Assembly: GCA_027026255.1 (NCBI GenBank)
Contig: JALVOT010000013.1
Coordinates: 1 to 56,754 of the forward strand
DNA from: Caldifarciminota bacterium
GTDB lineage: Bacteria; Hydrothermota; Tepidihabitantia; SM23-42
Length of the DNA stretch: 56,754 nt
Direction of reading: 5' to 3'
The notes under the pieces were generated by a model that worked only from the letters and a program-made list of their open reading frames with translations, did no database searches and had not been told where the DNA came from. Below, in pieces: positions 1 to 5,647 of this stretch (positions within the stretch are counted from its first letter, which is position 1; every line of letters begins with the position of its first letter). Made by a program: the position numbers and the translations under genes.

Positions 1-181
1 TGAGTATGCTAAAGAGGTGATGCCCGAACTTAATCGAGACATTGCCTTATTTCCACCGGTAATTTTAGATAATCTCAGTAGTAGCTCTTTCTGGAAAGGT
101 GGTAAGGATGTGTGTGCACATTACATTATGAAATTTGATTTATTGTTGGTTTTTCATACCCGGCGTCAGTTTTGGGGCTAA
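1..181 (+). pseudogene. 3' end of IS481-like transposase, cut by window edge
   Basis: Reading from base 2, the frame gives EYAKEVMPELNRDIALFPPV and continues to a TAA at 179-181. The sequence closely matches the C-terminal coding end of the IS481-like copy at 4578-5647 (opposite strand) up to about base 114, where the two diverge. The last residues therefore come from flanking DNA, and the element's end lies near 112-116. The catalytic part is outside the window, so I cannot tell whether this copy is intact. Confidence 0.8.
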
Positions 182-245: not shown

Positions 246-1307
246 TTATCTTACAACAATCTTACCGGATGTATTCAGGAATCGGGATGTGAATTTATAA
301 AAATAGACGCCGCTTTTTACCTTTTCACCTTTGTTGTCTTTAAGATTCCATTTTACCAGTTCCCTTTCTCGGTTTACCCTCGCCTTTATGGTTTTGACTT
401 CTCTGCCTGTGACATCGTATATGTTGATGCAGTATTCAGAACCAAGCGGCATTGTAAATTCAAACCGGGCAGAATTCATACAGGGATTGGGAAAGAGATT
501 GACCTGATTAGAAATAAGAGATTTTTTATTATTCTCTTTCTCTTTGATGGAGAGTTCAGTGATTGATATTTTGCCACCCTGCCAGATTTCTTTTGTGGAA
601 TCGGATTGGAGCACATCACTTTGAATCCAGGCGACTATTTCACATTTACTCTCATCCCAGCCGGATTGGATAGTGAATGACCGACTTATAGTTACAGAAT
701 CCCCAGAAGCGATTGTAACGGTCTGGCCATTCTGATCGGGTAGATAGTCCCTTGCCACATGGTTGTGCCAGAGATCACCATTACGTGCATGGTAATAGAT
801 GCTGTCTTCGGTTATAACGAAGATTATTCGGCCATTCAGGCTTGCAGTTGAGTCATTGCGGAATTTTGCATAGACCGTTCCTGAGCCGTCTGCTGCGTAA
901 TCACCCCACATTGTCAGGGTGACAGGAGAGGGTTGATTCATACGGTTGGTAATCTTTTGTTCCCAGGTATATGAACCGCCTGAGTGGGGGTTGCCGTCAT
1001 ACCAGAGCCAGGGTGTTGCATAGTACCAGGAACCACCGGAATAATAAGGCGGTGGGTAGTAGAACCAGCGCTGACGGGCCTCAGCACTGTAAAGTGGATA
1101 GCCACTATTAATATGCATTTCAATGGCAGCAACCCTGTGTGGATGGTTTATAACGATTTGAGCCAGCGTCCTACTGGCTGATGCGCAACCGCCTCAGCCC
1201 TCTGAGTATGCTTCTTCACAGATTACGGTTCTCTGGGCACCGTATAGTGGTGCTAAGAGACCACAGCTTATAATAAAGCTTAAGCCGATTAAAAACCATT
1301 TTTGCAT
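246..1307 (-). CDS. Secreted thioredoxin-fold protein, putative selenoprotein (UGGC), copy A
   Basis: The start is ATG at 1307, preceded by a strong AGGAGG; the internal ATG at 1118 has no ribosome site. Residues 1-24 form a signal peptide (MQKWFLIGLSFII...). Codon 38 is TGA (1194-1196), followed by Gly-Gly-Cys, so reading it as selenocysteine gives U38-G-G-C41. The motif lies in an EE-x5-CxxC-type context, as in secreted Omp28/thioredoxin-like proteins. A TPWLWYDG segment resembles the cis-Pro region of that fold. The C-terminal ~85 residues are a type IX-like sorting domain (LFPNP, IYDVTGREVK, SGVYFYK). Length would be 353 residues with U. Likely role: extracytoplasmic thiol/selenol redox chemistry. 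The alternative is a nonsense-mutated pseudogene, which the intact downstream frame and the same arrangement in copy B argue against. Confidence 0.8.
1161..1196 (-). promoter_or_regulatory. Candidate Sec UGA codon and bacterial SECIS-like hairpin (copy A)
   Basis: The UGA occupies 1196-1194 on the minus strand. After 14 nt comes AGCCAGT, a 5-nt loop AGGAC, then GCTGGCT. This gives six Watson-Crick pairs plus a closing U-G pair. A G lies in the first two loop positions, and the loop starts about 22 nt after the UGA. Both agree with the usual bacterial SECIS description. It is inferred by eye, without a folding calculation. Confidence 0.65.
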
Positions 1308-1328
1308 GGTACCTCCTATATAATTATA

Positions 1329-1356
1329 ACTATATATAAAAACAGTAAATTGTCAA
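1329..1356 (-). promoter_or_regulatory. Promoter of copy A gene
   Basis: TTGACA (1356-1351), 16 nt, TATAGT (1334-1329) on the minus strand. The leader runs to AGGAGG at 1317-1312 and ATG at 1307, so this mRNA has a normal leader. The same promoter precedes copy B. Confidence 0.75.
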
Positions 1357-1546
1357 TAGGTCGTTATTCTGTTTCTTCAGGACATCGATTATTTATATTA
1401 AGTGCAGCGCGTAATGATTGCTATTGAATATATTTAATTAATGGCTTGTAAGAGGAGCGGTCAGGAATAGGATTTTCTTTCCGACAAATATTTATTCCAG
1501 CCAGATTAACCTTAAGTTGGGGTTAAAGAGTGAAAAAATAGAAAAT

Positions 1547-1580
1547 AGGGGGACGGGTTTTCAGATAACACAGTCCCCCT
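1547..1580 (-). terminator. Rho-independent terminator of copy B gene
   Basis: Same AGGGGGAC/GTCCCCCT hairpin and T-rich tail as at 202-235, placed 11 bases after the copy B stop codon. Confidence 0.8.
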
Positions 1581-1590
1581 GTTGAATAAT

Positions 1591-2661
1591 TTATCTTACA
1601 ACAATCTTACCGGATGTATTCAGGAATCGGGATGTGAATTTATAAAAATAGACGCCGCTTTTTACCTTTTCACCTTTGTTGTCTTTAAGATTCCATTTTA
1701 CCAGTTCCCTTTCTCGGTTTACCCTCGCCTTTATGGTTTTGACTTCTCTGCCTGTGACATCGTATATGTTGATGCAGTATTCAGAACCAAGCGGCATTGT
1801 AAATTCAAACCGGGCAGAATTCATACAGGGATTGGGAAAGAGATTGACCTGATTAGAAATAAGAGATTTTTTATTATTCTCTTTCTCTTTGATGGAGAGT
1901 TCAGTGATTGATATTTTGCCACCCTGCCAGATTTCTTTTGTGGAATCGGATTGGAGCACATCACTTTGAATCCAGGCGACTATTTCACATTTACTCTCAT
2001 CCCAGCCGGATTGGATAGTGAATGACCGACTTATAGTTACAGAATCCCCAGAAGCGATTGTAACGGTCTGGCCATTCTGATCGGGTAGATAGTCCCTTGC
2101 CACATGGTTGTGCCAGAGATCACCATTACGTGCATGGTAATAGATGCTGTCTTCGGTTATAACGAAGATTATTCGGCCATTCAGGCTTGCAGTTGAGTCA
2201 TTGCGGAATTTTGCATAGACCGTTCCTGAGCCGTCTGCTGCGTAATCACCCCACATTGTCAGGGTGACAGGAGAGGGTTGATTCATCCGGTTGACAATCT
2301 TTCTTCGCCAGGTGTTTGGGTTATAGCCTCCGTCGGGGTTGCCGTCATACCAGAGCCAGGGTGTTACATAGTACCAGGAGCCATTGGAATAATAAGGCGG
2401 CGGGTAGGAGTGCCAGCGCTGACGGGCTTCAGCATTATAAAGTGGAGAGCCATTACCAGCATAAATATGCATTTCAATGGCAGCAACCCTGTGTGGATAG
2501 TCTATAGCGATTTGAGCCAGTTCTCCACTGGCTGATACGCAGGGGTTTCAATAATCTGCATATACTTCTTCACAGATTACGGTTCTCTGGGCACCGTATA
2601 GTGGTGCTAAGAGGCCACAGCTTACAATAAAGCTTAAGCCGATTAAAAACCATTTTTGCAT
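1591..2661 (-). CDS. Secreted thioredoxin-fold protein, putative selenoprotein (UNPC), copy B
   Basis: The start is ATG at 2661 behind AGGAGG. The signal peptide is nearly identical to copy A. Codon 38 is again TGA (2548-2550), here followed by Asn-Pro-Cys, giving U38-N-P-C41. The two residues between U and C differ from copy A, while the TGA and the Cys are kept. Between the TGA and the shared C-terminal part, the copies differ by substitutions and by whole-codon insertions (for example MHINSGYP against MHIYAGNGSP), as expected if this part is translated. From MNQPSPVT onward the proteins are identical, including the type IX-like sorting domain. Length would be 356 residues with U. A nonsense pseudogene cannot be excluded without expression data. 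Confidence 0.8.
2515..2550 (-). promoter_or_regulatory. Candidate Sec UGA codon and SECIS-like hairpin (copy B)
   Basis: The UGA is at 2550-2548. After 14 nt comes AGCCAGT, loop GGAGA, ACTGGCT: seven Watson-Crick pairs with G as the first loop base. The closing pair is U-A here and U-G in copy A, so pairing is kept although the loop sequence has changed. Confidence 0.65.
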
Positions 2662-4577: not shown

Positions 4578-5647
4578 TCATCCGAGCTGAAATTGTAATA
4601 CGCACACATCCTTACCACCTTTCCAGAAAGAGCTACTACTGAGATTATCTAAAATTACCGGTGGAAATAAGGCGATGTCTCGATTAAGCTCAGGCATAAC
4701 CTCTTTAGCATATTCAATCGGCGTCTTGTTGTCAAGGTTATCACCACTGTGTCTGCGCCTGGTATTGTAGTATCTAAGCCAACTATAAGCTATTAAAAAT
4801 AGCGAATTTGTATCTTCAATCTCAGCACCATAAGGAATATACAATTCCTCATCATCAGTCCGGTGACTACGCTCCACATAACCATTCTGCTCCTTACGAC
4901 CCTTGTAAATCCGGGTAATCTCACTATCAAATAAACCTAAACGCTGATTCATCCAGGCAATCTTCTTACCCTCATCACCCCCAAACTCATCACCCCAGTC
5001 AGTCTGAATAATAATCCGCTGCTTAACCCCAAAAGCACGCAGCCAAAATACCACTAATAACAAAAATGCCCAACCATTACTAAAACTCTTCTGCTGACCA
5101 TAAGCAAGAAACCGCAACCGCGTCCGCACATCAATCGCCGTAAACTGATATAACGGCACACCCCGCTGCATCAATTCCTTGAAAGGCGCAAAATCAAGAG
5201 GATTATAGTAACGACGCCCCGTCTTACGAATCGTGAGCTTCTTACGAGGCTTATATAAACATTATTGCGCTTCAAAATCTTCTGGACCGTGCCATAAGAA
5301 AGCTTAACCCGATACTTCTGCCACAATGCCCGGGCAATACGCCGCGCCCCATAGTTGGTCTTCTCACGCAACATAAGCACTAACCTCTCAACCTCATCCG
5401 AGGTCTTACGAGGCATCCGATGCGGTCGCCGAGAACGCTCTCTTAACCCCGCCTCACCCTCAGCAAAGAAACGCCGCAACCATTTCCGCACCGTAGGACG
5501 CGAAATTCCACAAAGGCGCGCAGTTTTAGAAATCTTACGCTCCCCAGCATGAAAATAACAATCAATAACACGCTTATGCGCCAGCACCGCATCTAATCTT
5601 AAAACCTCCCAATATTCTAAGTTAAGCAATTTGTTAATTTTTTGCAA
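4578..5647 (-). pseudogene. IS481-like transposase, frameshifted
   Basis: The N-terminal part (5171-5647, TTG start) has a helix-turn-helix region (ISKTARLCGISRPTVRKWLRR). The C-terminal part (4578-5174) has the integrase core with three acidic residues: Asp in AIDVRTR, Asp in TDWGDEFGG and Glu in NGYVERSHR. The two frames separate at about 5255-5265, where one base seems to be missing: adding an A in the run before AAGCCTCG restores KPRKKLTIRKTGRRYYNPL and one continuous protein. IS481 transposases are normally a single ORF, and there is no classic slippery run here. I read it as a mutation rather than programmed frameshifting. Related pieces lie at 1-181, 2729-2779 and 51613-51843. Confidence 0.8.

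Follow-up and report, generated by a model that had tools for sequence, protein, structure and literature searches.

Genes at the Locus

The DNA under study is a 56,754-nucleotide stretch from a Caldifarciminota bacterium (contig JALVOT010000013.1), referred to here in its entirety as the window. The gene structure, Sec machinery, conserved U, RNA hairpin, and domains described below are computational results. Located near the left end of the window, and both on the minus strand, are two genes, designated A and B, each predicted to encode a selenocysteine (Sec)-containing, Omp28-like secreted protein. Gene A extends from position 246 to 1307 and gene B from 1591 to 2661, stop codons included, with the products consisting of 353 and 356 amino acid residues, respectively, when U38 is counted. 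Each reading frame contains one in-frame TGA, at codon 38, where the leading residue of a CxxC motif is encoded, and is otherwise open. The presumed Sec codon is found at 1194-1196 in gene A (U-G-G-C) and at 2548-2550 in gene B (U-N-P-C), and it aligns with U or Cys of the homologs. The AGGAGG ribosome binding sites at 1312-1317 (A) and 2666-2671 (B) and the signal-peptide regions formed by codons 1 to 24 (1236-1307 in A and 2590-2661 in B) were read from the sequence. Further along lie the Omp28 domain, identified by a Pfam match to PF11551 (615-1013 in A and 1960-2361 in B), and a T9SS type A sorting domain, delineated by a profile match (252-497 and 1597-1842). An earlier note on this DNA had described such a single-TGA frame, complete with ribosome site, signal peptide, and sorting domain, in both genes, and the sequence and the domain profiles bear that description out.

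The two genes display 77-82% identity per 100 nucleotides between codons 33 and 125, and are 100% identical from approximately codon 125 to the end. The TGA codons have been retained within this most divergent stretch, and the insertions and deletions there comprise whole codons. Given the complete identity beyond codon 125 and the whole-codon indels, A and B are recent tandem copies. The frame-keeping divergence that had been noted from the letters is thus real, and is limited mainly to codons 33-125.

Transposase fragments are observed at window positions 1-180 and 4578-5647. The end of the transposase open reading frame at 4578-5174 recurs at the left window edge, and thus the A/B pair is flanked by insertion-sequence remains. 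A search of plasmid records found no similar DNA.

Selenocysteine Machinery of the Host Genome

The host genome consists of 2.10 Mb on 18 contigs and is 99% complete. A profile search of this genome identified SelA, with a score of 549 bits, and two SelB proteins with scores of 342 and 324 bits. On contig C15 the genes for SelA and SelB are positioned side by side, and adjoining them is a tRNA-Sec gene with a UCA anticodon (78.5 bits). On contig C17, two SelD genes are accompanied by another full SelB, a cysteine desulfurase-family protein, and a selenium transporter of the YedE type. Each of the SelD genes has its own in-frame UGA, in the contexts TRAAGUAGKLC and TCPGUASKL, at the known Sec site. 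The two Sec-type SelD genes serve as an internal positive control for the reading of UGA as Sec in this genome. The sel gene search suggested in the earlier note therefore recovered SelA, SelB, SelD, and tRNA-Sec alike.

The two full-length SelB genes are located at G000:C15:4506-6383 and G000:C17:75150-77036, where G000 is the host genome, and they occur there together with the two Sec-type SelD genes. Most relatives contain a single SelB above the cut-off, as opposed to the two in the host genome.

Homologs and Phylogenetic Distribution

Two further copies, a tandem pair with one TGA each, are encoded on contig C8 of the host genome, such that there are four TGA copies in total. Cys versions with the sequences FTATWCTYC and FTFARCTYC are found on contig C17. 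Close homologs in 100 relatives, which span the family, order, class, and phylum, carry a single TGA, and at the same codon, with few exceptions, such as two TGA codons in genome G001 and a TAG in one copy from G009. The two additional genomic copies and the dozens of homologs with a lone TGA at this position exclude chance. From the extracted loci, 65 distinct TGA forms and 23 Cys forms were obtained. In 65 of the 65 TGA forms the codon corresponds to the U of UxxC, with variable intervening residues, and among the genes read neither TAA nor TAG ever occupies the codon-38 position. The proposal that the UGA marks the first Cys position of CxxC, and that U and C are fixed while the residues between them vary, was made from genes A and B and holds across all 65 distinct genes. 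The paralogs with Cys at this position read C..C. Both outcomes that the earlier note named as refuting its reading, a genome lacking the Sec machinery and random stops at this position in homologs, were checked for, and neither was seen.

In a tree built with the U/Cys column masked, the short subfamily holding A and B forms a 43-row group with a support of 90, and U is present in 43 of the 43 rows. Across all of the Omp28-like rows of the tree, at least eight Sec/Cys changes are required. Sec/Cys switching among close relatives can be seen in a group of 600-residue Omp28-like paralogs (L101-L106, and P0005, which is L048:13778-15574), where FTATxUPYC and FTATWCTYC are both represented. According to named records, the group of genes A and B belongs to candidate division WOR-3/Candidatus Stahlbacteria. 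An alignment of the region after UxxC was employed to find 18 named WOR-3 loci; a contig scan with the single protein P0002 as the query returned no matches.

The TGA form and SelA co-occur in the 100 genomes with a Fisher p of 6 x 10-17, as calculated from a table compiled by hand. Both are present in 50 genomes and neither in 40, four genomes have the TGA form without SelA, and, among the matches listed, at most six have SelA without the TGA form, of which G085 does show a TGA match. Hence SelA was found in 50 of the 54 genomes with a TGA form. A full SelB is encoded in three of the four exceptions, and the fourth exception is only 53% complete. One relative, G007, a single-contig assembly that is 90% complete, encodes a full SelB and several TGA-form genes, and a search for SelA in that contig gave no match. 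The SelB gene of G007 is located between two U-Omp28 genes.

Predicted SECIS Hairpin

Following each UGA codon is a predicted bacterial SECIS hairpin on the minus strand. In gene A it lies at 1161-1179 (AGCCAGT-AGGAC-GCTGGCT) with an energy of -10.2 kcal/mol and a z of -2.9 versus synonymous shuffles, and in gene B at 2515-2533 (AGCCAGT-GGAGA-ACTGGCT) with corresponding values of -11.1 kcal/mol and -1.9. Both hairpins consist of a 7-bp stem and a 5-nt loop that starts 21 nt past the UGA, and among the TGA-form genes the hairpin lies 21-23 nt after the UGA. The constraints described for bSECIS elements are a loop of 3-9 nt, a G within the first two nucleotides of the loop, a distance of 16-37 nt from the UGA, and an energy of -7.5 kcal/mol or lower (PMC13188914). 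Both window hairpins fall within these limits.

The stability of the fixed region from +14 to +45 after the UGA was compared with that of 300 synonymous recodings per gene. The U genes are more stable than the synonymous expectation, with a mean z of -2.23 (n = 65), the majority of members, though not every one, having a strong hairpin (68% at p < 0.05). No extra stability was detected in the Cys homologs (mean z of -0.18, n = 23) or in the same U genes at windows shifted by 60-300 nt (z of -0.01 to 0.14). The pairing is specific to its register, with a paired fraction of 0.79 versus 0.23-0.36 when slid. With shuffled partners the value is 0.71, compared to the real 0.79, and the covariation alone is modest, the shuffled pairing being already high because the stem columns are conserved. 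The longer Omp28-like proteins have a different stem sequence and an AGGU loop. A hairpin search that forced one spanning stem was dropped, as it missed some members and both window copies.

Domain Architecture, Predicted Fold, and Export Signals

The Omp28 domain scores 55.2 bits in protein A and 53.8 bits in protein B against a Pfam gathering cut-off of 34.9. At the C-terminus, the Pfam model Por_Secre_tail is matched by protein A with 27.6 bits (cut-off of 27), and the TIGR04183 sorting domain lies above its cut-off of 23 in P0001-P0003, with the window proteins scoring 33.2 and 33.3 bits. The T9SS component SprA was recognized in the host genome as a 1806-residue frame (SprA_N, 72 bits with a cut-off of 27), and thus a type IX system is likely.

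With respect to the region preceding Omp28, TrxA models are matched weakly by set member P0004 (E of 0.004), with U at the CxxC position. A profile of 38 homologs gave weak matches to thioredoxin and Omp28 chains in the PDB, including the solved Omp28 chain 2r2c. The AlphaFold model is confident (pLDDT of 93) and places U at the start of helix 1, which contains 16 residues. The order of elements, taken from the DSSP line, is strand, U-helix, strand, helix, a near-invariant Pro, strand, strand, and helix. Features of the thioredoxin topology that are matched in the model include the β-α-β...β-β-α arrangement, the location of the active site where helix 1 begins, and the Pro before the third core strand. 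A whole-protein fold search, which was dominated by β-sandwich repeats, yielded poor Ig-like β-sandwich alignments alone, with TM values to the query of 0.27 or lower, and the assignment of a thioredoxin fold thus rests on sequence matches and predicted topology. These support an N-terminal domain that is probably thioredoxin-like with a UxxC motif. The earlier suggestion of an exported protein of thioredoxin-like topology draws its support from them and, for export, from the signal peptide and the T9SS tail.

Relationship to Known Selenoproteins

The UxxC families listed in a recent inventory of prokaryotic selenoproteins include NF045500, formerly GOS_C (PMC13188914), and a thioredoxin-like fold was ascribed to GOS_C in the original Global Ocean Sampling study (PMC2398784). 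The NCBIfam name of NF045500 is Omp28-related. Like the window proteins, this family is Omp28-related and thioredoxin-like, has UxxC, and has Cys homologs, and it is the best-scoring selenoprotein model over the N-terminal part (residues 24-257 of P0002). The window proteins differ, however, in scoring 44.8 and 46.3 bits against a curated cut-off of 200, and in the WOR-3 phylum none of 147 genomes contains a protein above that cut-off. Assignment of A and B to NF045500 was accordingly rejected, and they belong to a divergent subfamily. The claim of a new selenoprotein family, as put forward in the earlier note, must be narrowed: Sec in an Omp28-related protein is already known, and it is the subfamily that is new.

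With Omp28 (PF11551, the 28 kDa outer membrane protein) the window proteins share a domain above the cut-off, but they differ in the Sec that begins the CxxC motif and in a T9SS tail in place of the lipoprotein form, NF033782. They share with bacterial thioredoxin and DsbA-like UxxC selenoproteins the position of UxxC at the start of helix 1, but differ in being secreted and multidomain and in having weak sequence similarity to thioredoxin models. With T9SS type A cargo they have in common the C-terminal sorting domain, in a genome that encodes SprA. No selenoprotein is described as T9SS cargo in the inventory (PMC13188914), and a literature search combining selenoprotein or selenocysteine with WOR-3, Stahlbacteria, or type IX secretion returned nothing relevant.

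Neighboring Genes and the NGDFE Family

Positioned directly upstream of the U-Omp28 pair on contig C8 is a gene for a CsoR/RicR-type metal-sensing repressor with extra N-terminal cysteines (L047:2710-3006). In several relatives, the genes downstream of U-Omp28 encode, in turn, one or two NGDFE proteins with a TGA, a small Omp28-like lipoprotein that likewise has a TGA, a thioredoxin of the TlpA-like type, and a DUF6029 protein. This gene order is conserved at L132, L135, L136, L137, and L192 (G000:C17:7000-16500), with the lipoprotein motif being either GUGFC or GUPYC. On host contig C17 the NGDFE, lipoprotein (GUPYC), and DUF6029 genes occur together.

The NGDFE proteins are secreted, have the pattern NGDFE...CUGA...KVFADD, and end in a T9SS tail (L132:6932-8866, L171 at G000:C17:11989-12552, and L161-L190). 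Nearly all of the ∼100 matches in 80 genomes searched have a single TGA, and the host genome contains one copy. The hairpin after the UGA has a mean z of -2.6 and an AGGU loop. No Pfam or NCBIfam model matches the N-terminal half, and the predicted structure is a carbohydrate-binding-like β-sandwich (pLDDT of 91). No prior record of the family was found, and it is a more novel lead than the U-Omp28 subfamily.

On balance we lean toward the existence of a dedicated WOR-3 extracellular selenoprotein system, in which operons would encode a Sec-thioredoxin/Omp28 protein, a smaller Sec-Omp28-like lipoprotein, a Sec β-sandwich protein, a TlpA-like thioredoxin, and a DUF6029 protein, the larger ones type IX-sorted, that together may form a surface redox relay. 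If so, the β-sandwich proteins would represent a new selenoprotein family outside of the thioredoxin fold.

Interpretation

With high confidence, genes A and B, which belong to a WOR-3 (Stahlbacteria) bacterium, are functional and encode selenoproteins, namely exported UxxC thioredoxin-like/Omp28 proteins, likely with a redox role. The pair might instead be considered pseudogenes, in which a nonsense mutation was passed on by tandem duplication. Indeed, flanking transposase fragments and recent duplication are typical of decaying regions, and some relatives' copies carry extra stops (those in G001 and G009). The same-codon TGA is kept, however, in dozens of divergent homologs with otherwise open frames, among the genes read it is never TAA or TAG, and selection on the hairpin tracks U and not Cys. 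Such phylum-wide conservation refutes decay, which we regard as extremely improbable. Conservation also led to the rejection of a scheme, itself highly unlikely, whereby translation truly ends at the UGA and begins anew beyond it, for instance at Met codon 64, to produce a 290-residue Omp28 protein without the thioredoxin part. An ATG-initiated reading frame of 290-293 residues does follow the TGA, but its use would mean loss of the signal peptide and splitting of a conserved domain; the flanks of U and C show conservation both before and after the codon, and visual inspection revealed no conserved second ribosome site. Genome-wide reassignment of UGA, to Trp or Gly for instance, would likewise leave the frame open when TGA is taken as sense. 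The larger open reading frames of the window, however, end in TGA in nine of 36 cases (TAA in 22 and TAG in five), in agreement with the note's view of UGA as an ordinary stop elsewhere in the window, and TGA appears once in each gene, at an active-site Cys position. With a dedicated tRNA-Sec, SelA, and SelB in the genome, reassignment is already refuted and its likelihood is vanishingly small.

A different possibility accepts the selenoprotein but has its UxxC domain bind, store, or sense selenium or a metal instead of carrying out disulfide exchange. The CsoR/RicR-type repressor gene next to the second pair, the several copies per genome, and the CBM-like selenoprotein and DUF6029 protein of related operons are compatible with such a function. 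The placement of UxxC at the thioredoxin active-site position, the conserved Pro, and the TlpA-like partner gene, on the other hand, favor redox exchange, and CxxC is retained in the Cys paralogs. We consider a binding, storage, or sensing role fairly unlikely.

For a redox-active selenoprotein, the following scheme is favored. The UGA at codon 38 would be read as Sec by SelB and Sec-tRNA(UCA), with recoding directed by the short hairpin, in which the apical loop contains a G and begins 21 nt past the UGA. The signal peptide would export the protein, and the type IX tail would probably place it on the cell surface or outside of the cell. The attacking residue would be Sec, which leads the UxxC motif where helix 1 begins, in a domain joined to the Omp28 β-sandwich. 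The most likely role would be that of an extracytoplasmic selenenylsulfide/dithiol oxidoreductase, and its electron relay may possibly be the TlpA-like thioredoxin of the related operons. Sec insertion in the cell, the route of export, the redox activity, the electron donor, and the substrate are what we infer from the analysis.

Implications

Since standard gene callers stop at UGA, annotation has probably reduced an expanded class of exported selenoproteins, from a phylum that is uncultured, to truncated fragments. The alignment provides ∼65 genes that have short SECIS hairpins, for which the Cys paralogs serve as natural controls. Why Sec is retained, given that Cys never replaces U in the 43 rows while sister groups switch, can be addressed through a U-to-C comparison. 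For the organism itself, the export signals suggest that these type IX-tagged proteins, present in multiple copies, would employ Sec at the cell surface or outside of it.
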